64,000 bases of DNA from Sympetrum striolatum. Its lineage: Eukaryota > Arthropoda > Insecta > Odonata > Libellulidae. Positions 25,236 to 59,828 of the stretch are shown piece by piece. Position 1 is the first letter of the stretch. Every line of letters starts with the position of its first letter. The notes under the pieces are model-generated. The model was given only the letters and a program-made list of their open reading frames with translations, made no database searches and had not been told where the DNA came from. The stretch spans positions 1 to 64,000 of the forward strand of contig CANPUZ010000076.1 in the NCBI GenBank assembly GCA_947579665.1. The letters run 5' to 3'. The translations under genes were made by a program, and so were the position numbers.

Positions 25236-25311
25236 GATAACACGTTATGGCCAATATGTCGTAAAAATTTCAAGGCATTGGCACTTGTGGAACATGGTTA
25301 GAATTTTGATC

Positions 25312-25350
<39 letters not shown>
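25236..25350 (+). repeat. Partial microsatellite-end piece plus (TA)n
   Basis: ACACGTTATGGCCAATATGT and CGTAAAAATTTCAAG match the microsatellite end of the B-box elements to the right. A (TA)n run (about 25315-25350) follows. The rest of that copy is missing, so it is truncated at the junction with the inverted duplication. Confidence 0.6.
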
Positions 25351-25353
<3 letters not shown>

Positions 25354-26520
25354 GAGTAAAATGTAGCTTGCATACTGCAAGCAGATCGACAACACTAATT
25401 TCATATCGGCATCATATACCGGGACGGACATCAAAAGAAAAAAAAAATTCAAAATATTCGTAGAATTCGCTGCAATTTAATCACCTGGCAGCGAACCCCG
25501 GTCTTCCTGGTGTACTTACTATGCAGCAAAATAGAAAATTACTATATCAAACTATGTGTGAAAATTCAAGCAAAACTATTAGGTGCAACTACCTCAAACG
25601 ACGTCCTACTATTCACATACACTCCTTATTTGAGAAATTATAATGTGCTCTGGCATCGAACCCAGGAACAGCATGGTCTTATCTATTTTTTTTCTTAAAC
25701 AAAGTGTTAATATACATCTTCCATCTAAGCAAGAGCTCCCTTACATATCGAAAAATGCATAAAAAAATTATGAAAAGATACCCCATAGTATTATATATGG
25801 GTGATATTTTTACTGCCCGGCATCGAACCCGGGTCTTTCAGGCAATACTTTCTATGCAGCACAAAAGAAAAACACCATCTCTAACCGCGTATGCAAATTC
25901 AAGCAGAAATATTGGTTACAACTGCCTCAAATGACGTCCTACTTTTCCTTTATATTCCTTATGAGAGAAACGTTATTGTGCTCTGGCTTCGAACCCAGGA
26001 ACAGTACGGTCTTATGAAAATTTTTTTCTAAAACTTATTCGTACCATACATCTTCCAGCCAAGCACGAACATCCTATCATTTCGATAAGTGCATCTAAAA
26101 AAATAATGAAAAACGGCTCCCATGTATTTTAAAGGGCAGATCTTTGCATCGTCCTAGCATCGAACCCAGGATAACTTTTGTAAAAGTCATTGATGTTTTC
26201 GAAAGTCCAAGACCATAAATATAGGCACCTTGAGTTTTACTTCTCTACCTATCCGGAAAGTATTTTGTTTTAATTCCCGAAAATCACGGCAATGCATTCA
26301 AACGGGAAAAATCGGGAATTTGGGGCCCTCTGGAATCGAACCTATGACACTGAGGATCAAAGTCTCTTTTTTCCTGGGGGTTTCACGTTATGGCCAATAT
26401 GTCATAAAAATTTCAGATCAATGACGCTTGTAGTTTAGGCTGTGAATTTGTATCCTATCTATCTATCTATCTATCTATATAGGTATATATATGAATGAAT
26501 CCGGAGAAGCATCTATCTAT
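25351..26520 (+). mobile_element. B-box element copy 1, type I
   Basis: Six T-arm-like cores near 25494, 25660, 25826, 25992, 26164 and 26340, spaced 166, 166, 166, 172 and 176 bp. Type I has two alternating monomer kinds repeated (GCAGCACAA-linked and CAGGAACAG-linked). About 970 bp is nearly identical to 44746-45720. Confidence 0.8.
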
Positions 26521-26522
26521 TA

Positions 26523-27682
26523 TACGAGTAAAATGTTGCTTGCATACTGCAAGCAGATCGACAACACTATTTTCATGTCGGCATCATATCGGGACGGCCA
26601 TCAATATAAAAAGATGGATTGAAATTTTTCTTAAAATTCGCTGAAATTCCATCGTCTGGCATCGAACCCCGGTCTTTACTGTGAACTTACTATGCAGCAC
26701 AATAGAACATCACCATCTTTAACTATGTGTGAAAATTCAAGCAGAAATATGGGCTACAACTGCCTCAAATGACGTTCTAATTTTCACGAATTTAAATGGC
26801 TCTCTGGATTCGAACCAAGGACGATTTTGGAAGTCTAAAAAATGTTTCTGAAAGTTATTTATGATTTCTATCTATATGCCGAATTTGAAGTTTCTATATT
26901 ATTTACAAAGGTTTCAAAATAATTCCTAAAAATTGGATCAACTTCTGATTGCAGAGACACCTGGTGTCGAACCCAGGACACATTGATAGCTGTGAATGCA
27001 CTGTTTGATTTTTATGGACTTGATCTTTCTATATGCAAAGTTTGAAGTCGATATCGTACCGGGAAGTAACAAAAATTTGTTTCCGTTATCTCCGTAAGAA
27101 ATGCATAGAGGAATTTAAATGGCCCTCTGGGATCGAACCAAGGACCATCAGCGAATATGTAAAATTTGATTATGAAATATATTTATAATATCCCACCCCA
27201 TGCCGAATTTCGAGTTTCCATGTTATCGGAAAGAAGTCCAAAAAAAATCTTAAAATCGCCACAATGCAATTTAAACGGCCGATATTTGCCCCGTCCTAGC
27301 ATCGAACCATGGACCATATTCAACGATGTCTTTATGATTTACGTTGGATATGCACGGCTTCTAGCGATCCCTCGAATTTCAATTCTCTCCTTTTCCGGGA
27401 AGTGCCACAAAAAAATTTTCGAAAATCCCCGCCATGTATTCTTATGGGGAAAATCGCGACTTTGGGGCCTTCTGGAATCGAACCCATGACACCGAGGTTC
27501 AAAGTCGGCTTTTTCCTGGAGGTTGCACGTTATGGCCAATACGTCGTAAAAACTTCAAGTCAATGACGCTTTTGGTTTAGCCTGTGAATTTGTATCCTAT
27601 CTGGGTATCTGGGTATCTGGGTATCTGGGTATCTGGGTATCTGGGTATATATATGAATGAATCCGGAGAAGCATCTATATAT
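26523..27682 (+). mobile_element. B-box element copy 2, type II
   Basis: Cores near 26664, 26818, 26972, 27136, 27305 and 27482. Microsatellite end carries a GTATCTGG minisatellite (about six repeats) in place of TATC repeats. Confidence 0.8.
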
Positions 27683-27686
27683 CTAT

Positions 27687-28839
27687 TACGAGTGCGATGT
27701 AGCCTGCATACTGCAAGCAGATCGGCAATATTATTTATTTCGGCATCATATCGAGACGGTCCTCAAAAGAAAAAAAAAAGGATTGAAAATATTCTTAAAA
27801 TTCGCTTCAATTTTAGCGTCTTGCATCGAACCCGGGTCTTCCTGGTGAACTTACTAAGCGGCACAATAGAAGATAACTATATCTAACTATGTGTGAAAAT
27901 TCAAGCAGAAATATTTGCTACAACTGCTTCAAACGACGTTCTACTTTTCACGAATACAAATGGCTCTCTGGATTCGAACCAAGGACGATCGTGGGAATCT
28001 AGAACATGTTCCTGAAATGTATCAATAATCTCTATCTGTATGCTGAATTTCAAGTTTAAATATAATTGGGATATGGTTCCAAAAAATTCTGAAAAATCGG
28101 ATCATTTACTGATTGTAGAGACGCCTGGTGGTAAAACCAGGAAACATTGGTAGCTGTGAATTCACAGTTTGATTAGTGATGACTTGATCTTATCTTATGC
28201 AAAGTTTCAAGTAGATATAATATCGGGAAGCACCTAAAATGTGTTTCCGTAATCTCCATAAGAAATGCATTGAGGATTGTAAATGGCCCTCTGGGATCGA
28301 ACCAAGGACCATAAGGGAATATGTAAAATTTGATTATGAAATATAATTATGATATCTAACGCCATGCAGAATTTCAAGTTTCTATGCCATCGGAAAAGGG
28401 TTAAAAAAAAATCTTAAAAATCGCCGCAATGCATTTTAAACGGCCGATATTTGCCCCGACCTAGCATCGAACCAAGGATAATATTCGTAGATGTCTTTAT
28501 GGTTTCCTTTTGATATGCGTGGCATCTAGCGATCCCTCGAGTTTCAACTCTCTCCTTTTCCGGGAAGTGCCTCAAATAAATTTTGGAAAATCCCCGCCAT
28601 GTAATCTTATGGGGAAAATCGCGACTTTGGGGCCTTCTGGAATCGAACCCATGACACTCAGGTTCAAAATCACATTTTTTCTGGTGGTTACACGTTATGG
28701 CCAATACGTCGTAAAAATTTCAAGTCAATGACGCTTTTGGTTTAGCCTGTGAATTTGTATCCTATCTGGGTATCTGGGTATCTGGGTATCTGGGTATCTG
28801 GGTATATATATGAATGAATCCGGAGAAGCATCTATATAT
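27687..28839 (+). mobile_element. B-box element copy 3, type II
   Basis: Same layout as copy 2, also with GTATCTGG repeats. The third core is decayed (GGTGGTAAAACCAGG near 28130), and the starting sequence reads ACGAGTGCGATGTAGCCTGC, which weakens the hairpin. Confidence 0.8.
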
Positions 28840-29985
28840 AACGAGTAAAATGTAGCTTGCATACTGCAAGCAGATCGACAACACTAATTTTATATCGGCA
28901 TCATATCGGGTCGGTCCTTAATAGAAAAAAAAAGGATTGAAATATTTCTTCAAATTCGCTGAAATTTCATCGTCTGGCAATGAACCCGGGTCTCTCTGGT
29001 GAATTTACTATGCAGCACAATAGAAGATCACCGATTCTAACTATGTGTGAAAATTCAAGCAGAAATATTTGGCTACAACTGCCTCAAAAGACGTTTTAAT
29101 TTTCACGAATACAAATGGCTCTCTGGATTCGAACCAAGGACGATCTTGGAAATCTAAAATATGTTTCTAAAAGTTATTTATGATCTCTATCTATATGCCA
29201 AATTTCAAGTTTCTATATTGTTGGGAAAGGTTTGAAAATAATTCCTAAAAATCGGATCAATTTCTGAATGCAGAGACACCTGGTGTCGAAGCCAGGAGAT
29301 ACTGTAAGCTGTGAATGCAAAGTTTGATTTGTAACGACTGGCTTTTCTATCATGCAAAGTTTGATGTCGATAGCATGCCGGGAAGTACCTTAATTTTGTT
29401 TCCGTTATCTCCGTAAGAAATGCATTGAGAAGTGCAAATGGCCCTCTGGGATCGAACCAAGGACCATCAGCGAACATCTAAAATTTGATTATGATATATA
29501 TTCATGATATCTATCGACGTGCCGAGTTTCAAGTATCCATGTTATCGGGAAAGGATCCAAAAAAAATCTTAAAAATCGCCGCAATGCATTTTAAACGGCC
29601 GATTTTTGCACCGACCTAGCATCGAACCATGGACAAAATTCGAAGATGTCTTTTTGATTTTCGTTGGATATGCACGGCTTCTAGCGGTCCCTCGAATTTC
29701 AATTCTCTCCTTTTCCGGAAAGGGCCTCAAAAAAATTTTGGAAAATCCCCGCCATGTATTCTTATGGGGAAAATCGCGACTTTGGGGCCTTCTGGAATCG
29801 AACCCATGGCACCGAGGTTCAAAATCACATTTTTTCTGGCGGTTACACGTTATGGCCAATACGTCGTAAAAATTTCAAGTCAATCACGCTTGTGGTTTAG
29901 GCTGTGAATTAGTATCCTATCTATCTATCTATCTATATAGGTATATACATGAATGAATCCGGAGAAGCATCTATATATAATAGAT
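28840..29985 (+). mobile_element. B-box element copy 4, type II
   Basis: Complete copy ending in TATC repeats and GAATGAATCCGGAGAAGC; meets copy 5 end to end (microsatellite ends facing). Its end is nearly the same as that of copy 11. Confidence 0.8.
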
Positions 29986-29989
29986 TGAT

Positions 29990-31133
29990 ATAGATGCTTC
30001 TCCGGATTCATTCATATATCATATATATATATATTCATATATATATATATATATAGAGAGGATACAAAGTCACAGGCTAAACCACTAGCGTCAATGGCTT
30101 GAAATTTTTACGACATATTGGCCATAACGTATAACCGCCAAAAAAATTGTGATTTTGATCCTCAGTGTCATGGGTTCGATTCCAGAGGGCCCCAAAGTCC
30201 CGATTTTTCCCGTTTAAATGCATTGCTTTGATTTTCGGGAATTAGAAAAAATTATTCCCGGATAGGTAGAGAATTAAAACTCAAGGAGCCTTTATATATG
30301 GTCATGGTCTATCGAAAACATAAATGAGTTCTACGGAAAATAACCTGGGTTCGATGCTAGGTCGATGCAAAAATCTGCCGTTTAAAATGCATTGTGGCGA
30401 TTTTTAAGATTTTTTTTGACCCCTTTTCAAAGGCATGGAAACTTGAAATTCGGTATGAGGTTAGATACCATAAAATAATATCATATTATAATTTTTTATC
30501 TTCGCTGATGGTCCTTGGTTCGATCCCAGACGGACATTTATATTCATCAATGCATTTCTTACGGAGATAACGGAAACAAATTTTAGGTACTTCCCGGCAT
30601 GCTATCGACTTAAAACTTAGCGTGTTAAAAGAATAAGTCTTAACAAATAAAACTGTTTATTCACAGCTATCAATGTGTCCTGGGTTCGACACCAGGTGTC
30701 TCTGCAATCAGAAGTTGATCCGATTTTTAGGAATTATTTTGAAACCTTTGCCAATAATATAGAAACTTGAAATTTGGCATATAGATTGAGATTATTAATA
30801 ACTTTCAGAAACATGTTTTTTATTACCAAGATCGTCCTTGGTTCGAGTACCAAGAACCATTTACATTCGTGAACATTAGAGCGTCTTTTGAGGCAGTTGT
30901 AGCCAATATTTCTGCTTGAATTTTCACAGATAGTTAGAGATGGTGATATTCTATTGTGTTTCATATTAGGTTTACCATTAATACCCGGGTTCGATGCCAG
31001 ACGATGAAATTTCAGCGAATTTTAAGAAAAAATTAAATCCTTTTTTTCCTTATGAGGACCGTCCCGATGTGATGCCGATATGAAATTAGTATTGCTGATC
31101 TGCTTGCAGTTTGCAAGCTACATTTTACTCGTA
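29990..31133 (-). mobile_element. B-box element copy 5, type II, inverted
   Basis: Inverted copy; cores near 30175, 30350, 30510, 30685, 30845 and 30995 read GGTTCGA directly on the plus strand. Hairpin end abuts that of copy 6 with ATATAATAGAT between. Confidence 0.8.
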
Positions 31134-31140
31134 TATAATA

Positions 31141-32280
31141 GATACGAGTAAAATGTAGCTTGCATACTGCAAGCAGATCAGCAATACTAATTTCATATCG
31201 GCATCACATCGGGACGGTCCTCATAAGGAAAAAAAGGATTTAATTTTTTCTTAAAATTCGCTGAAATTTCATCGTCTGGCATCGAACCCGGGTATTAATG
31301 GTAAACCTAATATGAAACACAATAGAATATCACCATCTCTAATTATGTGTGAAAATTCAAGCAGAAATATTGACTGCAACTGCATGAAACGACGTCCTAC
31401 TATTCACGAATGTAGATGGCTCTCTGGATTCGAACCAAGGACTATTTAGGAAATCTAAAACATGATTTTGAAATGTATCTATGTTCTCTATTTATATGAC
31501 TAATTTCATGTTTTAATATTATTGGGAAGGGGTTAAAATTAATTCTTAAAAATCGGATAATTTACTGATTGTAGAGACGCCTGGTGTCGAACCCAGGAAA
31601 TATTGGTAATTGTGAATGCTCAGTATGATTTATTAGGACTTAATCTTATTTCATTTAAAGTTTAAAGTCGATATCGTGCCGGGAAGTACCTAAAATATAT
31701 TTCCGTTATCTCCATAAGAAATGCATAGAGGAATGTAAATGGCCCTCTGGGATCGAACCAAGGACCATCAGCGAATATGTAAAATTTGATTATGAAATAT
31801 ATGTATCAACTCCAACCTCATGCAAAATTTCAAGTTTCCTTGCCATCGGGAAAGGGTCCAAAAAAAATCTTAAAAATCGCCACAATGCATTTTAAACGGC
31901 CGATTTTTGCCTCGACCTAGCATCGAACTTAGGATATTTTCCGTAAAACTCATTTATGTTTTCGATAGATCATGGCCATATATAAAGGCTCCTAGAGTTT
32001 CAATTCTCTACCTATACGGGAAGTATTTTTTAAAAATTCCCGAAAATCTAAGCAATGCATTTAAACGGGAAAAATCGGGACTTTGGGGGCCTCTGGAATC
32101 GAACCCATGACACTGAGGATCAAAGTCGCTTTTTTCCTGGGGGTTATACGTTATGGCCAATATGTCATAAAAATTTCAAGTCAATGACGCTTGTGGTTTA
32201 GCCTGTGAATTTGTATCCTATCTATATAGCTATATAGCTATCTATTATATATAGATGCTTCTCCGGATTCATTCATGTAT
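31141..32280 (+). mobile_element. B-box element copy 6, type II
   Basis: Cores near 31290, 31430, 31585, 31755, 31920 and 32095. Its last segment with the CCGGATTCATTCAT motif (32255-32278) is inverted relative to the rest. With copy 7 it forms a pair closely resembling copies 12-13. Confidence 0.75.
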
Positions 32281-32292
32281 CCATATATATAT

Positions 32293-33410
32293 ACGAGTAA
32301 AATGTTGCTTGCATACTGCAAGCAGATCAACAACACTATTTTCATGTCGGCATCATATCCGGACGGCCATCAAAAGAAAAAAAAAGATTGAAATTTTTCT
32401 TAAAATTTGCCTAAATTCCATCGCCCGGCATCGAACCCGGGTCTTTACTGTGAACTTACTATGCAGCACAATAGACCATCACCATCTCTAACGATGTGTG
32501 AAAATTCAAGCAGAAATATGGGCTACAACTGCCTCAAAAGACGTTCTAATTTTTACGAATTTAAATGGCTCTCTGGATCCGAACCAAGGACGATCTTGGA
32601 AATCTAAAAAATGTTTCTGAAAGTTATTTATGATCTCTATCTATATGCCGAATTTAAAGTTTCTATATTATTGGCAAAGGTTTCAAAATAATTCCTAAAA
32701 ATCGGATTAACTTCTGATTGCAGAGACACCTGGTGTCGAACCCAGGACTCTTTGATAGCTGTGAATGCACTGCTTGATTTGTATGGACTTGATCTTTGTA
32801 CATGCAAAGTTTGAAGTTGATATCGTGCCGGGAAGTACCTAAAATTTGTTTCCGTTATCTCCGTAAGAAAAGCATTGGGAATTTCCAATGGTCCTCTGGG
32901 ATCGAACCAAGGACCATAAGCTAATATGTAAAATTCGATTATGAAATAAATTCATGATATCTATCGACGTGCTGAGTTTCAATAATTCATGTTATCGGGA
33001 AAGGATCCAAAAAAAATCTTAAAAATTGCCGCAATGCATTTTAAACGGCCGATTTTTGCCCCGGCCTGGCATCGAACCAAGGACAATATTCGAAGATGTC
33101 TTTCCGATTTTCGTTGGCTATGCAAGGCATTTAGCGGTCCCTAGAGTTTCAACTCTCTGCTTTTCCGGGAAGTGCCTCAAAAAAATTTTCGAAAATCCCC
33201 GCCATGTAATCTTATGGGGAAAAAACGCGACTTTGGGGCCCTCTGGAATCGAACCCATGACACTGAGGTTCAAAATCGCAATTATTCTGGAGGTTATACG
33301 TTATGGCCAATATGTCGTAAAAATTTCAAGCCATTGACGCTAGTGGTTTAGCCTGTGACTTTGTATCCTCTCTATATATATATCTATTATATATAGATGC
33401 TTCTCCGGAT
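32293..33410 (+). mobile_element. B-box element copy 7, type II
   Basis: Hairpin variant TGTTGCTTGC. Cores near 32430, 32580, 32735, 32900, 33070 and 33247. Nearly identical over most of its length to copy 13 (39192-40285). Confidence 0.75.
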
Positions 33411-33414
33411 TCAT

Positions 33415-33467
33415 TCATATCTATTATATATAGATGCTTCTCCGGATTCATTCATGGATATACCTAT

Positions 33468-33507
<40 letters not shown>

Positions 33508-34584
33508 GATACTAATTCACAGCCTAAACCACAAGCGTCCTTGACTTGAAATTTTTACGACGTATTGGCCATAACGTGTAACCGCCAGAAAAATTGCGAT
33601 TTTGATCCTCATGGTTATGGGTTCGATTCCAGAGGGCCCCAAAGTCGCTATTTTTTCCATAAGAATACATGGCGGGGATTTTCGAAAATTTTTTTGAGGC
33701 ACTTCCCGGAGAGAGAAAAAGTTGAAACTCCAGGGATCGCTAGAAACCGTGCGTATCCAACGAAAATCAGAAAGACATTTTAGAATTTAGTCCATGGTTC
33801 GATGCTAGGTCGGGGCAAAAATCGGCCGTTTAAAATGCATTGCGGCGATTTTGAAGATTTTTTTTGGATCCTTTCCCGATAACATGGATATTTGAAACTC
33901 GGCACGTGGATAGATATCATGAATATATTTCATAATAAAATTTTACATGTTCGCTGATGGTCCTTGGATCGATCCCAGAGGGCCATTTGCACTTCTCAAT
34001 GCATTTCTTACGGAGATAACGGAAACAAAATTTAGGTACTTTCCGGCATGTTATCGACTTCAAACTTTGCATGTAGAAAGATCAAGTCCATACAAATCAA
34101 ACAGTGCATTCACAGCTATCAATGTGTCCTGGGTTCGACACCAGGCGTCTCTACAATCAGTAACTGACCCGATTTTCAATGATTATTTTGAACCTTTTCC
34201 CAACAATATAGAAACATGAAATTTGGTATGTAGATAGAAATCATAGATATGTTTCAAAATCATGTTTTAGATTTCCAAGATCGTCCTTGGTTCGAATCCA
34301 GAGAGCCATTTACATTCGTGAAAATTAGAACGTCTTTTGAGGCAGTTGTAGCCAATATTTCTGCTTGAATCTTCACACATAGTTAGCGATGGTGATCTTC
34401 TATTGTGCTGCATAGTATGTTCACCAGTAAGACCCGGGTTCGATGCCAGGCGTAGAAATTTCAGCGAATTCTAGGGATATTTTCAATCCTTTTTCTTTTT
34501 CTTTTGAGGACCGTCCCGATATAATGCCGATATGAAATTAATGTTGTCGATCTGCTTGCAGTATGCAAGCAACATTTTACTCGT
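33415..34584 (-). mobile_element. B-box element copy 8, type II, inverted
   Basis: Begins with ATAGATGCTTCTCCGG and about eight TAGA repeats, then cores near 33620, 33805, 33965, 34130, 34295 and 34440, ending in the hairpin and TTTTACTCGT. Confidence 0.8.
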
Positions 34585-35755
34585 ATATATATATAGATGC
34601 TTCTCCGGATTCATTCATATATATAGCTATATAGCTATATAGATAGGATACAAATTCACAGGCTAAACCACAAGCGTCATTGACTTGAAATTTTTATGAC
34701 ATATTGGCCATAACGTGAAACCTCCAGGAAAAAAGCGACTTTGATCCTCAGTGTCATAGGTTCGATTCCAGAGGGCCCCAAAGTCCCGATTTTTCCCGTT
34801 TAAATGCATTGCCGTGATTTTCGGGAATTTTTAAAAAATACTTTCCGGATAGGTAGAGAAGTAAAACTCAAGGAGCCTATATTTATGGTCTTGGACTTTT
34901 GAAAACATCAATGACTTCCACAAAAAATATCCTGGGTTCGATGCTAGGACGATGCAAAGAACTGCCCTTTAAAATACATGGGAGCTGTTTTTCATTATTT
35001 TTTTTGATGCACTACTCGAAATAATAGGAAGTTCGTGCTTAGCCGGAAAGTGTAAGGTAACAATTGGTTTAAGAAAAAAATTTTCATAAGACCGTACTAT
35101 TCCTGGGTTCGGTGCCAGAGCACATTAACATTTCTCTCATAAGGAATATAAGGGAAAAGTAAGACTTCGATTGAGGCAGTTGCAGCCTATATTTCTGCTT
35201 GTATTTTCGCACATAGTTAAAGAATAATATCTTTTTATTATGTTGCATAGGAAGTTTCACCAGAAAGACCCGGGTTCGATGCCGGGCGGTAAATATGTCT
35301 CCCGTTTAAAATACATAGGGTTAGTATTTCATTATTTTTTTGATGCACTTATCGAAATGATAGGAAGTTCGTGCTTGGCCGGAAGATGTATGGTTAAAAC
35401 TGGTTTAAGAAAACAGTTTTCAGAAGACCGTAATATTCCTGGGTTCGATGCCAGACCACATTATCATTTCTCTCATAAGAAATATAAGGGAAAAGTAGGA
35501 CGTCGTTTGATGCAGTTGCAGTTGATATTTCTGCTTGAATTTTCACAGATAGTTAGAGATGGTGATTTTCTATTGTGCTCTATAGTAAATATCACCAAGA
35601 AGACCCGGGTTCGATGCCGGACGAATAAATTGCAGCGAATAATCAGAATATTTTCAATCCAATTTTTTTCTTTTGACGGCCTTCCCGATATGATGACGAC
35701 ATGAAATTAGTGTTGTCCATCTGCTTGCAGTATGCAAGCTACATTTTACTCGTAT
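34585..35755 (-). mobile_element. B-box element copy 9, type I, inverted
   Basis: Only type I copy in the middle of the array. Cores near 34760, 34940, 35105, 35272, 35440 and 35610. The microsatellite is a TATAGC repeat. Confidence 0.8.
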
Positions 35756-35757
35756 CA

Positions 35758-36860
35758 TATATATATATATATATATATAGAGAGGATACAAAGTCACAGG
35801 CCAAACCACTAGCGTCAATGGCTTGAAATTTTTACGACATATTGGCCATAACGTATAACCTCCAGAAAAATTGCGATTTTGATCCTCAGTGTCATGGGTT
35901 CGATGCCAGGTGGCTCCAAAGTCCCGATTTTTCCCGTTTAAATGCATTGCTTTGATTTTCGGGAATTAAAAAAAAATACTTCCCGGATAGGTAAAGAATT
36001 AAAACTCAAGGAGCCTTTATATGTGGTCATGATCTATCGAAAACATAAATGAGTTTTACGGAAAATAACCTGGGTTCGATGCTAGGTCGATGCAAAAATC
36101 TGCCGTTTAAAATGCATTGTGGCGATTTATAAGATTTTTTTTGGACCCCTTCCCGATGGCATGGAAACTTGAAATTCGGTATGAGGTTAGATACTATAAA
36201 AATATATCATAATCGAATTTTGCATATTCGCTGATGGTCCTTGGTTCGATCCCAGAGGGATATTTATATTCCTCAATGCATTTCTTACGGAGATAACGGA
36301 AACAAATTTTAGGTACTTCCCGGCATGCTATCGACTTAAAACTTAGCATGATAGAAGAACCAGTCTTAACAAATCAAACTATGCATTCATAGCTATCAAT
36401 GTGTCCTGGGTTCGACACCAGGTGTCTCTGCAATCAGAAGTTAATCCGATTTTTAGGAATTATTTTGAAACCTTTCCGAATAATATAGAAACTTGAAATT
36501 TGGCATATAGATTAAGATCATTAATAACTTTCAGAAACATTTTTTAAATTTCCAAGATCGTCCTTGGTTCGAGTCCAGAGAGCAATTTACATTCGTGAAC
36601 ATTAGAGCGTCTTTTGAGGCAGTTGTAGCCAATATTTCTGCTTGAATTTTCACACATAGTTAGAGATGGTGATCTTCTATTGTGTTTCATAGTAGGTTTT
36701 CCAGTAAGACCCGGTTTCGATGCCAGACGATGAAATTTCAGCGAATTTTAAGAATAAATTAAATCCTTTTTTTTCTTATGAGGACCGTCCCGATGTTATG
36801 CCGATGTGAAATTAGTATTGCCGATCTGCTTGCAGTATGCAAGCTACATTTTACTCGTAT
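35758..36860 (-). mobile_element. B-box element copy 10, type II, inverted
   Basis: Begins with a (TA)n run and lacks the GAATGAATCCGG piece at its own end; a stray copy of that piece lies at 36880-36918. Closely resembles copy 5. Confidence 0.75.
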
Positions 36861-36918
36861 ATATATATGAATATATGATATATGAATGAATCCGGAGAAG
36901 CATCTATATATAATAGAT

Positions 36919-38060
36919 ATACGAGTAAAATGTAGCTTGCATACTGCAAGCAGATCGGCAATACTAATTTCATATCGGCATCATATCGGGACGGTCTTTA
37001 AAAGAAAAAATAGGATTTAATTTTTTCTTAAAATTCGCTGAAATTTCATCGTCTGGCATCGAACCCGGGTCTTACTGGTAAACCTAGTATGAAACACAAT
37101 AGAAGATCACCATCTCTAACTATGTGTGAAAATTCAAGCAGAAATATTGGCTATAACTGCCTCAAAAAACGTTCTAATTTTCACGAATGTTAATGCCTCT
37201 CGGGACTCGAACCAAGGACGATCGTGGAATTCTAAAATATGTTTCTGATAGATGTTTATGATCTCTATCTATTTGCCGAATTTCAAGTTTCTATTTTAGT
37301 GGGAAAGGTTTCAAAATAATTCCTAAAAATCGGATCAAATTCTGATTTCAGAGACACCTGGTGTCGAACCCAGGACGTATTGCAAGCTGTGAATGCAGAG
37401 TTTGATTTGTAAAGACTTACTCTTGTATCAAGCAAAGTTTGAAGTTGATAGCATGTCGGAAAGTACCTAAATTTTGTTTCCGTTGTCTCCGTAAGAAATG
37501 CATTGAGAAGTGCAAATGGCCCTCTGGGATCGAACCAAGGACCGTCAGCGAACATGTAAAATTTGATTATGAAGATTATTCATGCTATCTATCCACGTGC
37601 CGAGTTTCGAATATCCATGTTATCGGGAAAGGATCCAAAAAAAATCTTCAAAATCGCCGTAATGCATTTTAAACGGCCGATTTTTGCCCCGACCAAGCAT
37701 CGAACCATGGACTATATTCTAAGATGTTTTTCTGATTTTCGTTGGATACGCACGGCTTCTAGCGATCCCTCGAGTTTCAACTCTTTCTCTCCCCGGGAAG
37801 TACCTCAAAAAAATTTTCGAAAATCCCCGCCATGTATTCTTATGGAGAAAATCGCGACTTTGGGGCCCTCTGGAATCGAACCCATGACCCTGAGGATCAA
37901 AATCGCAATTTTTCTGGCGGTTACACGTTATGGCCAATACGTCGTAAAATTTTCAAGTCAATCACGCTGGTGGTTTAGGCTGTGAATTAGTATCCTATCT
38001 ATCTATCTATCTATATAGGTATATACATGAATGAATCCGGAGAAGCATCTATATATAATA
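36919..38060 (+). mobile_element. B-box element copy 11, type II
   Basis: Cores near 37065, 37205, 37365, 37530, 37700 and 37880; complete microsatellite end with TATC repeats. Confidence 0.8.
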
Positions 38061-38077
38061 GATATATATATATAAAT

Positions 38078-39191
38078 ACGAGTAAAATGTAGCTTGCATA
38101 CTGCAAGCAGATCGGCAATACTAATTTCATATCGGCATCACATCGGGACGGTCCTCATAAGAAAAAAAAGGATTTAATTTTTTCTTAAAATTCGCTGACA
38201 TTTCATCGTCTGGAATCGAACCCGGGTCTTACTGGAAAACCTTCTATGAAACACAATAGAAGATCACCATCTCTAACTATGTATGAAAATTCAAGTAGAA
38301 ATATTGGCTACAACTGCCTCAAAAGACGCGCTAATGTTCACGAATGTAAATTGCTCTCGGGACTCGAACCAAGGACGATCTTGGAAATTTAAAAAATGTT
38401 TCTGAAAGTTATTATTGATCTTAATCTATATGCCAAATTTCAAGTTTCTATATTATTGGGAAAGGTTTCAAAATAATTCCTAAAAATCGGATCAACTTCT
38501 GATTGCAGAGACGCCTGGTGTCGAACCCAGGACACATTGATAGCTATGAATGCATAGTTTGATTTGTTAAGACTGGTTCTTCTATCATGCAATGTTTTAA
38601 GTCGATAGCATGCCGGGAAGTACCTTAAACTTGTTTCCGTTATCTCCATAAGAAATGCATTGAGGAATGTAAATGGCCCTCTGGGATCGAACCAAGGAAC
38701 ATCAGGGAAAACATAAAAATCCATTATGAAATATATTTATGATATCTAAACCCATACCGAATTTCAAGTTTCCATGCCATCGGAAAAGGGTCCAAAAAAA
38801 ATCTTAAAAATCGCCACAATGCATTTTAAACGGCCGATTTTTGCCCCGACCTAGCATCGAACCCAGGATATTTTTCGTAAAACTCATTTATGTTTTCAAT
38901 AGATCATGTTCATATATATAGGCTCCTTGAGTTTTGATTCTCTACCTATCCGGGAAGTATTTTTTTTTAATTCCCGAAAATCAAAGCAATGCAATTAAAC
39001 GGGAAAAATCGGGACTTTGGGGCCCTCTGGAATCGAACCCATGACACTCAGGTTCAAAATCGCAATTTTTCTGGGGGTTTCACGTTATGGCCAATATGTC
39101 ATAAAAATTTCAAGTCAATCACGCTTGTGGTTTAGCCTGTGAATTTGTATCCTATCTATATAGCTATATAGCTATATAGCTATATAGCTAT
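38078..39191 (+). mobile_element. B-box element copy 12, type II
   Basis: Cores near 38220, 38360, 38520, 38690, 38860 and 39040. Ends in TATAGC repeats directly joined to copy 13, with no GAATGAATCCGG piece. Confidence 0.8.
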
Positions 39192-40285
39192 ACGAGTAAA
39201 ATGTTGCTTGCATACTGCAAGCAGATCGACAACACTATTTTCATGTCGGCATCATATCCGGACGGCCATCAAAAGAAAAAAAAAGATTGAAATTTTTCTT
39301 AAAATTTGCCTAAATTCCATCGTCCGGCATCGAACCCGGGTCTTTACTGTGAACTTACTATGCAGCACAATAGAACATCACCATCTCTAACGATGTGTGA
39401 AAATTCAAGCAGAAATATGGGCTACAACTGCCTCAAAAGACGTTCTAATTTTTACGAATTTAAATGGCTCTCTGGATTCGAACCAAGGACGATCTTGGAA
39501 ATCTAAAAAATGTTTCTGAAAGTTATTTATGATATCTATCTATATGCCGAATTTGAAGTTTCTATATTATTGGCAAAGGTTTCAAAATAATTCCTAAAAA
39601 TCGGATTAACTTCTGATTGCAGAGACACCTGGTGTCGAACCCAGGACTCTTTGATAGCTGTGAATGCACTGTTTGATTTGTATGGACTTGATCTTTGTAC
39701 ATGCAATGTTTGAAGTTGATATCGTGCCGGGAAGTACCTAAAATTTGTTTCCGTTATCTCCGTAAGAAAAGCATTGGGAAGTGCAAATGGTCCTCTGGGA
39801 TCGAACCAAGGACCATAAGCTAATATGTAAAATTCGATTATGAAATAAATTCATGATATCTATCGACGTGCCGAGTTTCAATAATCCATGTTATCGGGAA
39901 AGGATCCAAAAAAAATCTTAAAAATCGCCGCAATGCATTTTAAACGGCCGAATTTTGCCCCGGCCTAGCATCGAACCAAGGACAATATTCGAAGATGTCT
40001 TTCCGATTTTCGTTGGCTATGCACGGCATTTAGCGGTCCCTCGAGTTTCAACTCTCTGCTTTTCCGGGAAGTGCCTCAAAAAAATTTTCGAAAATCCCCG
40101 CCATGTAATCTTATGGGGAAAATCGCGACTTTGGGGCCCTCTGGAATCGAACCCATGACACTGAGGTTCAAAATCGCAATTTTTCTGGAGGTTATACGTT
40201 TTGGCCAATATGTCGTAAAAATTTCAAGCCATTGACGCTAGTGGTTTAGCCTGTGACTTTGTATCCTCTCTATATATATATATAT
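39192..40285 (+). mobile_element. B-box element copy 13, type II
   Basis: Cores near 39330, 39480, 39640, 39800, 39970 and 40150; last recognisable full copy. A diverged hairpin end (TACTAGTAAATGGGTGCTTG at 40287) follows, suggesting another, decayed copy began there. Confidence 0.8.
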
Positions 40286-40286
40286 A

Positions 40287-43200
40287 CTAGTAAATGGGTG
40301 CTTGCAAACTGCAAGCAAAGAAAATTATGAAGGGATGTGTGTCTTTTTAATTATACTACCGTCTATCGTATACCTAATTTTCAAATATGAGATCGAGTTT
40401 CATCTAATAATATAATAATTATTTCGAAAGCCTTTCACGTTTAATTGAGACGGGAGTTTTGCAGTTGAGACCTTAAAGAATACGCATACGTAAAATTAAA
40501 TTAAAGAAATGCGCCAAACAAATTTAAGTAATAATAAAAGTCTTCGTAAGATAAAAAGGCGAGAAATCGATGGATGATTCGTTACCTGTAGTACTCGGTT
40601 CAGTGCAAGGCATACTTCAATTGAATCCTATGCACATTAAATGGCGTCTAAAGCGGCACAATGAGCTCCGTTTCTAATTAAATAAACAAATAGAAATGAG
40701 GCAACGTAGTTGAATAATTTTGAAGAATGTAGAAAAAGAAGTTGAATTTAAAGCCCATATGGAGATGTTGGGAAAATATTTTGCATGCGATGATAAACGC
40801 AGAAATTGTTTTTACTTACAAAAATTATCCAGCGAACACGTAGAACTACATAATCCGAAGGTCGTTCAAGGTTTTAGGACGTCCCCCTTTGGATTTCAAA
40901 GGCCTTCTACGCTTATTTGATACGGGAGATTTGGAGTTGATTCCTAATGAATGTGCATTTGTAAAATTAATTTAAGAAAATACGCCAATCAAAGCAAAGT
41001 TAGAATAAAAATCTGCATAAGATAAAAATGCGGAAAATAAATAGACGATTACCTGTGAAGTATTCGGTTCAGTGCCAGACATAATGAAATTGAATCCTAT
41101 GTTCATTAAATGGCATCTACCACGACAATGAGCTCCGTTTCTAATTATATAAACAAACAAATATGCTACAGGTAACGTATCTATGTAAATAATTTTGAAA
41201 AACGTAGAAAAAGAACTTAATTCTAAAGCCCGTTTGCAGAATATGAAAAAATAATTTGAGGTGAATACAATAGAAAAGAGTAAACATAGTAAGCATACAT
41301 TTTTAATCGCAGAAATTGTTTTACTTACGAAGAATCATCCAGCTGATACGTAGAAAAACGTAATCCAAAGTTCGTTCAAGGAAATCAGCGTATTTTATGA
41401 GTAGATTTTTGTTGTTTATTTTGATGAAAGTTAAATGTTCTTGATGTATATTAATATTACAAACAAAAGAATATTGAAAAATATTTCAAAAACTTCATAC
41501 TTTCATCACGGCGTATGTTATTTGAACTGCAAACAAATTTGTATTCCACGTAAATAATGGTCGTAGCCAAAGTTTTTATCTTGGGAAGGGTGCAAATAAA
41601 AACATTATTAATTTGTATTTAATTTAAGATGTTGCCGACATGGCGAAATTGGATGCAGGAAAAATGAAAATTCCACTTTGAGGTATAATTTAGTTAAATA
41701 CTCTCCACTGTACGTACATTTTTCATGCTTATGTGAATGAAAACATTTGGTTCTTCATGGACATTTATCGTTTCCCCAGCAGTATCCCATATCATTACGT
41801 AAGGTACTACGTATTAATTAAAAAAACGAAAATTTAACTTAATTTTAAATTCTGTATGGATAAGATGACAGAATAAATATATGTTATTAAAATAGAAAAG
41901 ACGATACATAATAGGCATACAATTAAAAGCACAATTTTCACACACGAAAGGCAATCCAACATATACGTATAATCCTAACATCGTTCAAGGATATAATTTT
42001 ATTTCCTGTGTAGATATTTGTTGTTCATTTAAATGAAAGTTACACTTTCTTGATATTCAATTATAATATGGTCCTTCAAGAAAGGCGGGCTGCAACGGGT
42101 TTGGCTGCCCGTATGAGCTTTTTGGTTACAATGTATCACAATGTATGTAGTATGAAATTGAGGCATACGTTACTTAAAGCTTCCCCTCCTAAAAGGAACA
42201 TCATCTAAAGAAGCCACACTATGAGGTGGCACGCGAGACAGGACGCTGGAGCTTATCTGTCGATCTTAAGAGAAACTAAGGGCAAAATACCAAACACACC
42301 GAGTGCGGTGAGAAAGTGGTCACTGTGCTAGGACTCCAACACCAAGGTACGAATTCCGGCTAGCAAGATTTTTCTGGCTATAGAATGGTTGAGTGTCTTT
42401 GTTAATAGTATTAGTTATTGAAATGGTGGTAATTGGGATCTTCCTGCTTTCATCAGAGATGTTATGAATATTGTTATTAATTATAACGCCATAAAGTAGG
42501 AATCGGAAATGGCCATTGCAAAGGAAGTTTTTAGACATAATTTAATATACGATAAATGCATTGGGTTAAGTGAGAATAAAGTGAAATACTACTATACTAA
42601 ACTATACCGATTTTGATGCTAATGATTCGTATTGTTTGCAGTTATATTATTTCTAAATAATATCGTTGAAACTATTAATTTACATTAATATTCTGATAGT
42701 AATATTTTAGGATGATGTAAATCTCAGTTGTACTTACTTTTACTCAGGCATAGGTAGACTTGATCCGGTATAATACGTTCTTCATCAGTAATTAATGAGT
42801 ATTTTTCATCGAAATTGCTTTCTTATCCCCCTTATATAGATTCAGTGTAGACTTTTAAATTTAATCCTTGAATAATCTCACTACTTACATGACTTTTCCG
42901 ATTATCTTCGTTTATAAATGGTCTCGTATTTTCTACATAAACTTATGTTATCACAGTATGTATTCCCGAATAATTCATTGACCGTGCAGATATTCGCTGT
43001 CCATTTTGATGAAAGTTACATTTTTCAACCTTCAGTCATAACATATATGGAAAGAAAATTTTTTTAATTATACCACTGTCTATTGTATGCATAATTTTCA
43101 AATAAGTGAGATCGAGATTCGCCAAATAATATGATAGTAAAATAATCATTTCTAAAGCCTTTCGCGTTTATGAGATACGGGAGTCTGTAATGAATACGCA

Positions 43201-44745: not shown

Positions 44746-45720
44746 ATACGAGTAAAATGTAGCTTGCATACTGCAAGCAGATCGACAACACTAATTTCAT
44801 ATCGGCATCATATACCGGGACGGACATCAAAAGAAAAAAAAAATTCAAAATATTCGTAGAATTCGCTGCAATTTAATCACCTGGCAGCGAACCCCGGTCT
44901 TCCTGGTGTACTTACTATGCAGCAAAATAGAAAATTACCATATCAAACTATGTGTGAAAATTCAAGCAAAACTATTAGGTGCAACTACCTCAAACGACGT
45001 CCTACTATTCACATACACTCCTTATTTGAGAAATTATAATGTGCTCTGGCATCGAACCCAGGAACAGCATGGTCTTATCTATTTTTTTTCTTAAACAAAG
45101 TGTTAATATACATCTTCCATCTAAGCAAGAGCTCCCTTACATATCGATAAATGCATAAAAAAATTATGAAAAGATACCCCATAGTATTATATATGGGTGA
45201 TATTTTTACCGCCCGGCATCGAACCCGGGTCTTTCAGGCAATACTTTCTATGCAGCACAAAAGAAAAACACCATCTCTAACCGCGTATGCAAATTCAAGC
45301 AGAAATATTGGTTACAACTGCCTCAAATGACGTCCTACTTTTCCTTTATATTCCTTATGAGAGAAACGTTATTGTGCTCTGGCTTCGAACCCAGGAACAG
45401 TACGGTCTTATGAAAATTTTTTTCTAAAACTTATTCGTACCATACATCTTCCAGCCAAGCACGAACATCCTATCATTTCGATAAGTGCATCTAAAAAAAT
45501 AATGAAAAACGGCTCCCATGTATTTTAAAGGGCAGATCTTTGCATCGTCCTAGCATCGAACCCAGGATATTTTTTGTGAAAGTCATTAATGTTTTCGAAA
45601 GTCCAAGACCATAAATATAGGCACCTTGAGTTTTATTTTTCTACCTATCCGGAAAGTATTTTTTAAAAATTCCCGAAAATCACGGCAATGCATTTAAACG
45701 GGAAAAATCGGGACTTTCGA
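44746..45720 (+). mobile_element. B-box element, type I, truncated
   Basis: Nearly identical to 25351-26325, then breaks at about 45715 (CGGGACTTTCGACGCTATGG) into an inverted piece of another copy. The high identity over 970 bp indicates recent duplication or conversion. Confidence 0.8.
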
Positions 45721-46258
45721 CGCTATGGCCATAACGTGAAACCTCCAGGAAAAAGCCGACTTTGAACCTTGGTGTCATGGGTTCGATTCCAGAAGGCCCC
45801 AAAATCGCGATATTCTCCATAAGGATACATGGCGGGGATTTTCCAAAATTTTTTGGGTGTACTTCCCGGAAAAGTAGAGAGTTGAAATTCGAGGGATCGC
45901 TAGAAGCCGTGCATATCGATCGAAAATCAAAAAGACATTGCCTTATATGGTCCATGGTTCGATGCTAGGTCGGGGCAAATATCGGCCGTTTAAAATGCAT
46001 TGCGGCGATTTTGAAGATTTTTTTTGGATCCTTTCCCGATAACATGGATACTTGAAACTCGGCACATGTATAGATATCATGAATATATTTCATAACAAAA
46101 TTTTTTATGTTCGCTGATGGTCCTTGGTTCGATCCCGGAGGGCCATTTGCACTTATCAATGCATTTCTTACGGAGATAACGGAAACAAAATTTAGGTACT
46201 TCCCGGCATGCTATCGACTTCAAACTTTGCATGCAATCATGCAAAGTTTGAAGTCGAT
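45715..46258 (-). mobile_element. Inverted partial B-box element, type II
   Basis: Contains three cores (near 45780, 45960, 46130) and stops inside the third-monomer region at a perfect palindrome (46213-46258). Confidence 0.75.
46213..46258. repeat. Perfect 21-bp palindrome, 4-nt loop
   Basis: Left arm 46213-46233, spacer CAAT, right arm 46238-46258. The left arm is normal element sequence (CGACTTCAAACTTTGC); the right arm is its exact inverse and marks the end of the element piece. This is the footprint of a foldback or template-switch rearrangement. Confidence 0.8.
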
Positions 46259-46280
46259 TAGGATTAGTCGTGTATGCTTA

Positions 46281-46479: not shown

Positions 46480-47440
46480 CTTAAACCGAAACCCAATTCT
46501 CTCCGATTTGAAGCCAATCCGCCCCTTGTGATAGGATTCTCAGCTACACATTCCCGAATGATATTGTCCTTTTTTTGAGGTTCATCTAGGCCGGCCCGCA
46601 CGTGATCTACTTCTCAAAGTATTATCATCATCATTGCTGCGATTGATTGATCTTTAGACGGTATTTCGATGCACTCTTTACTGCCTTACCACTTCTGAAA
46701 CGGAGCGTCCAGTAGCTAATGACCCCACAATCTCTCCCCTAACTGCTGGTGAAATCTCAGAAAATGGAGTTCGATCCATCTCCAAAAGCTGGTGATTACG
46801 AACTGCAAGCATATAACTTATGTATACAATATCCTATTGCATTGATAGACTAATTATAAGTATTTCGGGTGTCTCTTATTCGTATGACCCAAAAGCCGAT
46901 AACAAGGAAGTCATTATAGTTTAAAATCTCATGTTTCGATACTTATAAAGCTAAACGTAACAAAGGTCTCAGTCTCAGACCTTTTTTCCGTTGTGATCCG
47001 ACGGATAGAATGCTGTAAGTACGAATGGGGAAACATTTTGGGGAATGAGAGGAAATTTAACTCTAATCAGCTCACAGTATGCAAGTAACTTTTACTCGTA
47101 TTCTCAAAAGATTTATCTAGCACTGAATGGGCAACAGATCTTGGTTGATTCTTCCTTAGTATCCTCATTTCATGAAACATTGCCTTCAATTCCATTGCCT
47201 TGCCTGAGTGGTATATGACGGCAAGTTACGTATAATGGACAATAAAGGTCTTTATCAAGAATCCTTTGCACAGGAGAGAGAAATGAGAAGAAAGATAGTT
47301 TGAAGAAAACTATATTAACCAGCGAGTGACGGTGAGATTGAGGGCTTTATATAGAATGATGTAGAGTCATGAAATAAGTGAGGCCAAGGTGTGTTCACTC
47401 ACATAATTTATTTTTCATTTTCCTGACGGAAATGATAGAG
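46480..47440. other. No gene recognised; one hairpin-end remnant
   Basis: A degenerate B-box-element end lies at 47068-47101 (CAGTATGCAAGTAAC then TTTTACTCGTA). The remainder shows no supported feature. Confidence 0.4.
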
Positions 47441-48490: not shown

Positions 48491-48731
48491 TCAGCCGTAA
48501 TTTCCCTTACTCGCCGTAAGTTCCAAAACATTTACCCCCACTTCTGTTTTCCTTCCCTCCTGCAAATTACGTAGTACCAACATAAATTTTAAGTGCACTC
48601 TTTGGCCGCTAGAGTAGCGACGGGACATGCCCACAGACTTATGCAAACGACTGTACATGTTTCTTTCTGTTTCACCAATTTGTCTATTGAGGTAGGGGGG
48701 GTAACCATTCGCGACAGTTATTTCTTTTACG
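48491..48731 (-). pseudogene. PLE reverse transcriptase relic, downstream part
   Basis: The minus strand reads KEITVANGYPPYLNRQIGET directly after the inserted element's hairpin end. The NGYPP motif also occurs in the better-preserved PLE at 52053-54097 at the matching place (FTNGYPPELI). The rest is poorly conserved. Confidence 0.5.
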
Positions 48732-49888
48732 AGTAAAATGTAGCTTGCATACTGCAAGCAGATAGACAACACTAATTTAATATCGGCATAATATCGGGAC
48801 GGTCCTCAAAAGAAAAAAAAAAGATAGAAAATTTTCTTAAAATTCGCTGCAATTTAATCGTCTGGCATCGAACCTGGGTCTTCCTGATAAACTTACTATG
48901 CAGCACAACAGAAGATCACCATCTTTAACTATGTGTGAAAATTCAAGCAGAAATATTGGCTGCAACTGCCTCAAACGACGTCCTACCTTTCCCATATATT
49001 CCTTATGAGAGAAATTTTAATGTGTCCCGGCATCGAACCCAGGAACAGCATGGTTTTATCTATTTTTTTCATAAACCAGGTTTTAATATACATCTTCCAT
49101 CTAAGTAAGAACTTCCTATCATTTTGATAAATGCATCAAAAAAATAATGAAATGCTACCCCAATGTATGATGTATGGGGGATATATTTATAGCCAGGCAT
49201 CGAACCCGGGTCTTTCTGGCAATACGTTCTATGCAGCACAATAGAAAATAGGCATCTTCAACTATGTGTAAAAATTCAAGCAGAAATATTGGTTGTAACT
49301 GCCTCAAACGACGTCCTGCTTTCCCTTTATATTCCTTATGGAGAAAAGTTATTGTGCTCTGGCATCGAACCCAGGAATAGTACGGTCTTGTGAAAATGTT
49401 TTTCGTAAACCAATTTTTACCATACATCTTCCGGCCAAGCACGAACTTCCTATCATTTCGATAAGTGCATCAAAAAAATAATGAAAACCTACTCCCATGT
49501 ATTTTAAAGGGCAGATATTTGCATCGTCCTAGCATCGAACCCGGGATTTTTCCGTGAAAGTCATTTATGTTTTCGATAGATTACGACCATATATAAAGGC
49601 TCCTAGAGTTTTGATTCTCTATCTATCCGGGAAGTATTCTTTAAACATTCCGGAAAATCAAAGGAATGTTTTTAAACGGGACAAATCGGGAATTTGGGGC
49701 CTTCTAGAATCGAACCCATGACACTGAGGATCAAAATCTTTCTGGTGGTTATACGTGATGACCAATACGCCGTAAAAATTTCAATTTAATCACGCTTGTG
49801 GTTTAGGCTGTGAATTTGTATCCTATCAATCTATCTATCTATCTATATACATGAATGAATCCGGAGAAGCATCTATATATAATAGATA
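48732..49888 (+). mobile_element. Complete B-box element inserted in a PLE relic, type I
   Basis: Hairpin end at 48732, cores near 48870, 49035, 49207, 49370, 49540 and 49715, microsatellite end at 49815-49888. PLE coding sequence on both sides continues in the expected register when the element is removed. No duplication longer than a base or two is required, so these are probably the true element ends. Confidence 0.75.
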
Positions 49889-50235
49889 GTTATAAGTTCA
49901 AGAAGAAAGTTTTTGGGGGACAGAGGGATTTTAAACAATCTATGGATGAGGCTATGGAAGGCGGCGAACTTGAGTGAGTAGTGGTGGTTAGAGGTAAATA
50001 AAATGGTATTGTTAGTATAAGTCGGTTTTCTATAAATACTGAATTCGATTTTTTGATTTATTAGGAGTAGGGTGAGGTCTAGGAAGTTCAAACAATTATC
50101 AGTTTCAGTTTCATGGGAGAAGGAAATGTTCGGATGGGCACAATGGTCCACAAGAGATCCCTGTAGGCGCTGGACAGAACCTCGAAAGATCTTCGCGACA
50201 ACCAGAACATTTTTGGCGTAGCCATGATTCTGTTG
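49889..50235 (-). pseudogene. PLE reverse transcriptase relic, upstream part
   Basis: The minus strand reads HPNISFSHETETDNCLNFLD, IEFSIYRKPTYTNN and AAFHSLIHRLFKIPLSPKNF, matching the PLE at 52053 (HPSISFSHENEVNKSLNFLD, FSFSIYRKPSYTDH, AAFHSLVHRLLRIPMSPENF). Upstream it reads GYAKNVLVVAKIFRGSVQRLQ-like sequence where the YxDD motif belongs, so the catalytic residues are lost. Confidence 0.75.
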
Positions 50236-53819: not shown

Positions 53820-54989
53820 ATCCTCGGCGGTGGTAGCTTTTTTGATGCTGTTGAGGGTTTTTAAATTTGAAATTTCCTTGAAGTTAGGCGGTGGAAGAGA
53901 AGATAGGTGAGAGGATTTCAGAACAATTGTACTTCAGGGCGTTTGGAGGTGGCACAGTCCAATGTCAAATCTATAAAGTCCTCAGCCTTTTTTGGGAGTG
54001 CAGGGTTATATTTAAGGCCTTTACTGAGGAAATTAAGTTCTTTATCACTGAATTGATGATGTGAGATGTGTTCCACCAGATCTCCTTGGATACTATTCTA
54101 ATTATAACACTTTTGAAGTATCTGAATCATAAAAAATACTTCACAGCACCTAACGTCTGTGATATGATTTACAAAAAAGAAAAAGGCACTGTCGCGAGAA
54201 ATATCTGTTTAAAAGAAATAGACAAATTTATTTAAAATATTTTGAGGATTTTCAACCGAAAAAACCACTAAACAAACTTACTTTTCAGTGATAAACCAAC
54301 TGAGGCGAGAGGCTAGCTCTAGAAATTTCCGCCATAAAGTTTGTTTACATCCATGATGCGTTGCGGTTAAAGTTACTTTTAAGATTTAAATACCAATTAA
54401 GGCTTAAATATCGACAAAAATACGTTTTGTTAGAGTTTACGTGAAGATTTCGGTCAAGGTCGACTCTAAATATATGTTATAATACCGGACCTAAGTTTAA
54501 AAAATAGTAAGAGAGTAGTTCACTTAATCAGGTTAATCATTTTCGTTGACCGCGGAATTACGATGTTGTAAATAGATATGCTACATAATTTAAGTCAGAA
54601 TATAACATTAAAAAGGTCTTCAACTTACCAGGGAGTATGCAAATAATCTCCAGATTTTTCAAAAGGTAATTTAGTAAACACGCTAACACCAAATTCGCGT
54701 AACCATCTATAAATATTTACGTTGCTATAAACAAACATGACGTCAACACGGGCCTAAATCTCGATATTTTTTCTAATGAGGAAATTCAACAACCGCATTC
54801 GTCGTTAATGGGAACAGACTTGTTTGTAACCTCCAAAATCTCTCTAATATTTCTTATATTTTATGAAAATACTGGCAATTTCTAATCGAAATCGCTGGTA
54901 CACGACTAAAATAAGAAACTTTATTTAATTTACCTTCTTTTGATGGCATTCCCGACTTTCAACAACGATTCTTTCTAACTTAATTTTGC

Positions 54990-55095
54990 AAAATAAATAA
55001 GGCCTGCAACCGATAAAAGCCAAGTTTACGTGAATTCCTTATGGAACCCTATTATGGACTCCTGGGTTCGAACCCGGGCTTTCTTAGTAATGAGA
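54990..55095 (+). repeat. Isolated B-box / T-arm-like sequence
   Basis: CCTGGGTTCGAACCCGGG (about 55061-55078) is a near-perfect palindrome containing GGTTCGA, followed by CTTTCTTAGTAATGAGAATAG. It resembles the first monomer kind of the 25-40 kb elements but no neighbouring monomer was found; it could equally be a tRNA relic. Confidence 0.35.
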
Positions 55096-59822: not shown

Positions 59823-59828
59823 AAAATA

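Follow-up and report, generated by a model that had tools for sequence, protein, structure and literature searches.

What could keep one short motif intact in repeat monomers that have otherwise drifted apart? This question is raised by a 64-kb stretch of DNA from the dragonfly Sympetrum striolatum (positions 1 to 64,000 of contig CANPUZ010000076.1, assembly GCA_947579665.1; hereafter the window), in which a preliminary description had proposed about 13 elements in 15 kb, each with six copies of a motif resembling the B box of RNA polymerase III (Pol III) promoters, the sequence bound by TFIIIC. Our analysis bore this layout out. Between 25353 and about 40285 there are 13 elements of about 1.15 kb each, in mixed orientation and with six motif positions apiece. 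Two further elements and one partial copy were found beyond this interval, at 44749-46260 and 48730-49886, which brings the total to 92 monomer positions in 15 elements and one partial copy over a span of about 25 kb. Elements (E1 to E15) are numbered along the window and monomers (M1 to M6) within each element, every element being oriented so that GGTTCGA reads forward; each 5' end, located at a microsatellite, is placed approximately. Four elements (E1, E9, E14, and E15) form subfamily A and the remaining elements subfamily B, with identities of 59-68% between the subfamilies, 83-99% inside A, and 79-98% inside B. As a tentative explanation, one we place a little below an even chance, we propose that the array consists of Helitron-like copies whose extended B-box sites would recruit TFIIIC in the style of extra-TFIIIC (ETC) sites, a property that may have been selected in the source elements as they amplified.

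We observed the exact motif, GGTTCGANNCC, at 65 of the 92 positions in the whole window, with one mismatch at 24, two mismatches at 2, and four mismatches at 1; in the main 13-element interval there are 56 exact motifs for 78 positions. The earlier claim that every monomer keeps the motif therefore holds in its strict form for 65 positions only, with 24 more a single base away. In the window as a whole we counted 68 occurrences of the exact pattern, compared to 0.26 expected in shuffles; a tRNA call is among them, as is one palindrome that contributes on both strands. Divergence was measured within each monomer type and subfamily, with the M1 group of subfamily A (three rows) dropped. At the nine specified columns of the motif 17/801 cells (2.1%) were changed, compared to 1245/12438 (10.0%) elsewhere (p = 8e-18, with cells treated as independent although the copies are related), so the suggested check that B-box columns evolve more slowly than their flanks gave a clear positive answer. 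The two N columns within the motif (8/178, 4.5%) and the near flank (32/623, 5.1%) were also measured within groups. Among 150 sliding windows, the two with the lowest divergence begin at offsets -1 and 0 relative to the motif, and the motif CpG was changed in 2/89 cells compared to 99/486 for other CpGs. Site rates were estimated with IQ-TREE for the 157 alignment columns, out of 197, that contained 60 or more letters; the nine slowest lie at offsets -4 to +12, a contrast that is inflated because little-related groups were forced into a single alignment.

Divergence of the 11-mer from M1 to M6 was 0.8, 1.1, 2.3, 3.0, 3.6, and 4.2%, while the flanks ranged from 9.2 to 21.0% upstream (-40 to -7) and from 3.4 to 12.6% downstream (+13 to +45). 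When all monomers are pooled, conservation within the 11-mer is lowest at the two N positions (74 and 47%), followed by +10 (82%). The shared site is longer than the 11-mer, at about 17 bp, with the consensus (T)CC(T/C)(G/T)GGTTCGATNC(C/T)AG(A/G); M3 of E2 provides an example at 27125..27145 on the minus strand, where offsets -6 to +14 surround GGTTCGATCCC. Sites are spaced 148-177 bp apart (mean 165 over 76 intervals), which is nearly nucleosome-length.

This site is set in two different backgrounds. With the motif masked (offsets -6 to +14), profile searches placed M3 and M5 in one group and M1, M2, M4, and M6 in another, partly through chains of matches, as there was no direct match between the subfamily A and B versions of M3 or of M4. 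The best match between groups had an E value of 4e-3, two others reached 3e-2, and the rest were at 0.1 or more. Self-comparison of E2, E9, E12, and E15 gave lags of 324-337 bp, corresponding to a two-unit period, and pairwise consensus scores mostly agreed with the two groups, with the exception of M1 and M3 downstream of the site in subfamily B (z 3.5). In E2, E9, and E13, identity between units averaged 80-84% within the extended site and 41-44% in the remaining sequence. The monomers had been described as six diverged versions of one repeat; what all positions have in common is the ~17-bp site, while the two groups share little masked similarity. Two histories would fit: the groups may be of such age that hardly anything but the motif has persisted, or two different sequences may each have received the motif.

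One change crosses the group boundary. In the consensus list, -1 G to T is common to M2, M3, and M5 of subfamily B, M2 being of the other group, which may point to joint selection or to conversion over short tracts. The same change favors an account in which mechanics alone, through short gene conversion or hairpins aiding replication slippage, would have kept the motif without any binding protein. Motif 35-mers also score better for folding than do control windows (mean z -0.74 vs +0.23; 22% vs 5% below -1.5), but hairpin shapes vary between monomers and no single stem is kept throughout, for which reason a conserved hairpin was rejected as the object of conservation. Conversion alone also fails to account for the low divergence of the fixed columns compared to their own flanks, and we consider a purely mechanical origin very improbable.

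The site resembles an extended B box; at five of its six positions it has no accompanying A box. Base contacts of human TFIIIC are listed in a structural study (PMC11811891), and we placed them at offsets +1, +3, +4, +5, +9, and +10, a mapping that is our own. At these positions the contacted bases are kept in 97, 100, 99, 98, 99, and 82% of monomers, respectively; all six are intact in 70/92 monomers, and the five without +10 in 87/92. A T-arm-like context had also been described. Three of the five T-arm pairs are formed in most monomers (53-61 in 96%, 52-62 in 99%, and 50-64, mostly as T-G, in 91%), but 51-63 and 49-65 are mostly broken (formed in 30 and 39%), and overall 71% of pair cells are standard and 53% Watson-Crick. 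With two of five pairs mostly broken, a tRNA T-arm was rejected as the conserved object.

Three interpretations had been offered for the array, namely hexameric units of the short interspersed element (SINE) type, ETC sites, and a chromatin-organising satellite. We regard the ETC interpretation as the best of the three, as yet unproven, and refer to the motif positions as predicted TFIIIC sites. ETC sites are recognized by an extended B box without an A box, and by bound TFIIIC where TFIIIB and Pol III are absent; here the extended block is present, and an A box scores above chance in M6 but not clearly so in M1-M5. The ETC sites described in yeast and human (PMC12409998, PMC11724288), at which TFIIIC binds although no Pol III gene is present, resemble our predicted sites in having an extended B box. 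They differ in that our sites occur six per mobile element, at 92 positions in about 25 kb, with an A-like stretch at one of six.

Conservation equal to that of the core at -4, -3, and +12 goes beyond a B box, as would be expected if another sequence-specific protein, such as the replicase of the element or a host DNA-binding protein, bound the site and the B-box likeness were coincidental. A partial dyad, CTGG-N8-CCAG, is centred on TCGA, and its pairs are standard in 98, 62, 77, 83, and 41% (outermost) of monomers. However, mirror positions are kept unequally, at 97/99% for +1/+2 compared to 74/47% for +7/+8, a pattern that is B-box-like and unlike a symmetric site. The CENP-B box was tried as a specific candidate and rejected, since its matches were close to those of shuffles (6.35 vs 6.21 of 9). 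Weighing both sides, we find a different binding protein possible but rather unlikely.

An A-box-like stretch had been noted upstream of the B box, as in a tRNA-type promoter. The stretch is real, with TTAGAGATGG occurring 11 times in the window and in 8/15 M6 units. In a variable-spacing scan, in which a human tRNA gene scored 8/8 and the tRNA call in the window scored 7 at the expected place, M6 averaged 6.73 of 8 compared to 5.96 for shuffles, with 9/15 copies at 7 or more compared to 12% of shuffles, whereas M1-M5 were near or below their shuffles (5.67-6.44 vs 5.86-6.29). A fixed-spacing scan gave 5.71 vs 5.67 of 8, but the best match of its tRNA control was misplaced. The reported T-runs downstream of the motif were readily found, with runs of four or more within 120 nt in 87/92 monomers, which is unsurprising given AT-rich DNA.

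M6 could be a working type 2 promoter, composed of the A-like TAGTTAGAGATGG, the B box, and a T-run, with the other sites acting as helpers, spacers, or relics. T-runs lie downstream in 15 M6 copies, and the A-to-B spacing falls inside the range of 30-67 bp that the available text of PMC11811891 gives for tRNA genes. However, the A-like stretch of M6, at 9.0% divergence, is kept no better than most of the sequence around it, and since M6 copies are related it amounts in effect to one ancestral match. A Pol III unit would also leave five further sites unexplained, and there was no tRNA match in Rfam at E <= 1; we judge it improbable. More broadly, no tRNA-, 5S-, or 7SL-related head was matched at E <= 1 in 25240-40330 or 48700-49920, and no structured RNA family reached its gathering score in the whole window. 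Of these two intervals, only 25240-40330 had sub-threshold matches at E <= 1; there were 22 of them (one RUF2, the other 21 of microRNA type), which lay for the most part at inverted AT-rich junctions. Satellites of the Pol III type, whose repeats contain sequences resembling Pol III promoter elements, are known from Xenopus (Satellite 1) and Hydromantes (Hy/Pol III); PMC9659126 lists these as SINE-like and tRNA-related in origin, unlike the present elements, for which no tRNA relation was found. Elsewhere in the window, ARAGORN called a tRNA-Gln(TTG) at 12450-12523 that had no Rfam tRNA match at gathering score and is therefore perhaps a decayed copy.

The element that carries the predicted TFIIIC sites looks like a non-autonomous Helitron-like element and not like a SINE. 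A complete copy such as E15 consists of a 35-nt 5' segment, a microsatellite, a start at GGATAC, M1-M6, the hairpin GCTTGCA-GTA-TGCAAGC, nine bases, and CTCG. CTCG followed by T was observed at 16/16 3' ends, of which 15 were found without requiring the last bases and that of E3 through a pattern requiring C[AT]CG, all patterns requiring the hairpin letters. The hairpin lies close to the 3' end at all 16, with DNA fold z scores of -3.4 for E15 (48730..48759, minus strand) and -3.7 for a second copy. The 5' segment, exemplified by E15 at 49853..49887 (minus strand), where it reads A then TCTATTATATATAGATGCTTCTCCGGATTCATTC, is present in the orientation of the element at 9/14 element starts and missing at 5. 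The microsatellite varies in repeat unit from copy to copy; at the same place we observed the 8-bp TATCTGGG, ATAG, and CTATATAG (27598-27648, 28763-28805, 33468-33507, and 39156-39192). Copies of the 5' segment are also doubled, inverted, or placed between two tails at element junctions (29993, 32254, 33396, 33433, and 36904), as if 5' ends alone were added, and an isolated stretch at 47066-47101 has 86% identity to the 3' end of these elements.

One insertion can be followed at its flanks. E15 (48730..49886, minus strand) interrupts a Penelope-like open reading frame (ORF), and its termini are indicated by these flanks. Assuming that the interrupted copy is free of frame errors of its own, six flank joins are in frame, and the insertion shows no target-site duplication (TSD). 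Three of the six give the residue spacing of 5 homologs caught by pattern among the best 120 of 322 matches; all three yield the same protein, and one of them corresponds to insertion at A^T with a 5' TC. Together with the missing tRNA match, the confinement of above-chance A-box scores to M6, and the Helitron-like 3' end, the TSD-less join of E15 speaks against a hexameric SINE-like unit. The proposed chromatin-organising satellite is likewise doubtful, because at least this one full copy sits dispersed within another mobile element.

By the traits defined in the available text of PMC8969392, the elements share with canonical Helitrons a single 3' hairpin near the end; the one insertion followed is compatible with A^T and shows no TSD, and some copies have a 5' TC. 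They also resemble non-autonomous Helentrons that carry central repeats, namely Cg_HINE and Pearl from bivalves and DINE-TR1 from Drosophila (PMC7492417, PMC4067079, PMC9659126), which combine central repeats of about 160 bp (up to six in Pearl), a left-flank microsatellite, a 3' palindrome, and dispersed copies; the first three of these traits are present here, and E15 is a dispersed copy. Two motifs of reduced variability are mentioned for Cg_HINE in the same sources. Unlike these families, our elements combine two little-related repeat groups that share a B-box-like site. In addition, the subterminal inverted repeats described for HINEs (PMC4067079, PMC7492417) were not found in the two copies tested, on which ground HINE membership was rejected.

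How TFIIIC might have shaped these elements can be outlined in steps. The copies would derive from a non-autonomous element of about 1.15 kb and of rolling-circle type, with six ~17-bp sites in its centre, and each site would recruit TFIIIC in the extra-TFIIIC manner. Recruitment would have been selected in those source elements that amplified, for example if it kept the element open or shielded it from silencing, so that the replication enzyme could gain access.

Several observations weigh against this proposal. With regard to the carrier, a 5' TC (after A) occurs at 4/9 correctly oriented 5' segments (E4, E8, E11, and E15), the other 5 being altered at the junction. The 3' CTCG departs from the canonical Helitron CTRR at every end, and the best candidates for subterminal inverted repeats of 11-15 bp in E15 and E4 were no better than shuffles, which is why we call the element Helitron-like and file it under neither Helitron nor HINE. 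Also unlike canonical Helitrons, no Pfam match to a rep/helicase was found among the seven ORFs scanned of the 15 in the window of at least 120 aa, three of which matched a reverse transcriptase or endonuclease and four nothing. With regard to the site, the invariant positions -4, -3, and +12 lie outside the listed human contacts, making the block wider than a B box, and the N columns are kept better within groups than the rest (4.5% vs 10.0%) and are therefore not fully free. In M6, the above-chance A-box score adds to these points, and the stretch from -85 to -60 is kept as well (4.6%) as the extended site (5.5%). That stretch lies 60-85 nt before the site, and the interval 49360-49540 was noted alongside it. 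In M2, the downstream flank (3.4%) is better kept than -4 to +12 (4.8%), but not better than the 11-mer (1.1%). Changes private to single copies were slightly rarer in the motif than elsewhere (15/801 vs 392/12411, p = 0.044), a small difference suggesting that constraint acted mostly before the present copies arose, that is, on the source elements; there is little sign of host maintenance of inserted copies. Finally, all copies were sampled from a single window, recent duplicates among them (E1 and E14 at 99% identity, E7 and E13 at 98%).

A more far-reaching version of TFIIIC recruitment, in which a rolling-circle transposon would use TFIIIC sites in arrays (six extended B boxes spaced at nucleosome length and kept in two little-related contexts) to stay open or escape silencing and would seed insulator-like TFIIIC clusters as it spread, strikes us as speculative and on balance unlikely.

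On the minus strand of the main interval, E1 (25353..26520, subfamily A, six motif positions) is followed by the subfamily B elements E2 (26525..27686), which carries the 8-bp microsatellite near its 5' end, E3 (27688..28840), in which the M4 motif has decayed to four mismatches, and E4 (28842..29984). E5 (29986..31131, plus strand, B) lies head-to-head with E4 and tail-to-tail with E6 (31145..32290, minus strand, B), which is followed by E7 (32294..33380, minus strand, B). Three plus-strand elements come next: E8 (33381..34583, B), whose 5' segment is present in two tandem copies, E9 (34584..35752, A), and E10 (35753..36857, B), which has no 5' segment. The interval closes with E11 (36922..38063), E12 (38079..39192), and E13 (39193..40285), all on the minus strand and of subfamily B, the latter two without the 5' segment. 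Beyond it, E14 (44749..45735, minus strand, A) has five motif positions and lies head-to-head with the partial copy (45730..46260, plus strand), which has three. Just past E1, at 25241-25343, there is a diverged 5' part of a related element. A single possible distant relative of the monomers, motif included, lies at 55051-55113 (profile E 6e-4), together with the palindromic GGTTCGAACC.

Other mobile elements share the window. E13 adjoins the 3' end of a different Helitron-like family at 40270-40325, which has a strong hairpin (DNA fold z -4.95) and a canonical CTAG followed by T. A Penelope-like element (PLE) reverse transcriptase ORF occupies 52053-53933 on the minus strand, and a long interspersed nuclear element (LINE) occupies 57927-61004 on the plus strand, its endonuclease and reverse transcriptase being encoded by a pair of adjoining ORFs. 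In protein searches, the top identity was 50% for the PLE (best 120 of 322 matches) and 66% for the LINE (best 120 of 7718), with one LINE piece at 77% over 64%; the named PLE relatives among the matches listed were from insects, at 36-44% identity. For the array elements themselves, a distant search found no match in phages, a 22-mer gave 0 hits in genome contigs, and two patterns gave 0 and 0 in viral contigs, results of little weight because these collections are prokaryotic or viral. Among the literature matches listed, titles and abstract openings contained no link of Helitron-type repeats to TFIIIC or the B box, which is not proof of absence.

Satellite DNA can arise from the central repeats of Helitron-type elements, as described in PMC12628747. 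A B-box-like site that is about five times less divergent than the rest of the repeats, in groups that share little else, provides a testable candidate for what, if anything, preserves the sequence of such repeats, namely the recruitment of TFIIIC. Should this hold, clusters of ETC-like sites would be dispersed by mobile elements of this type.

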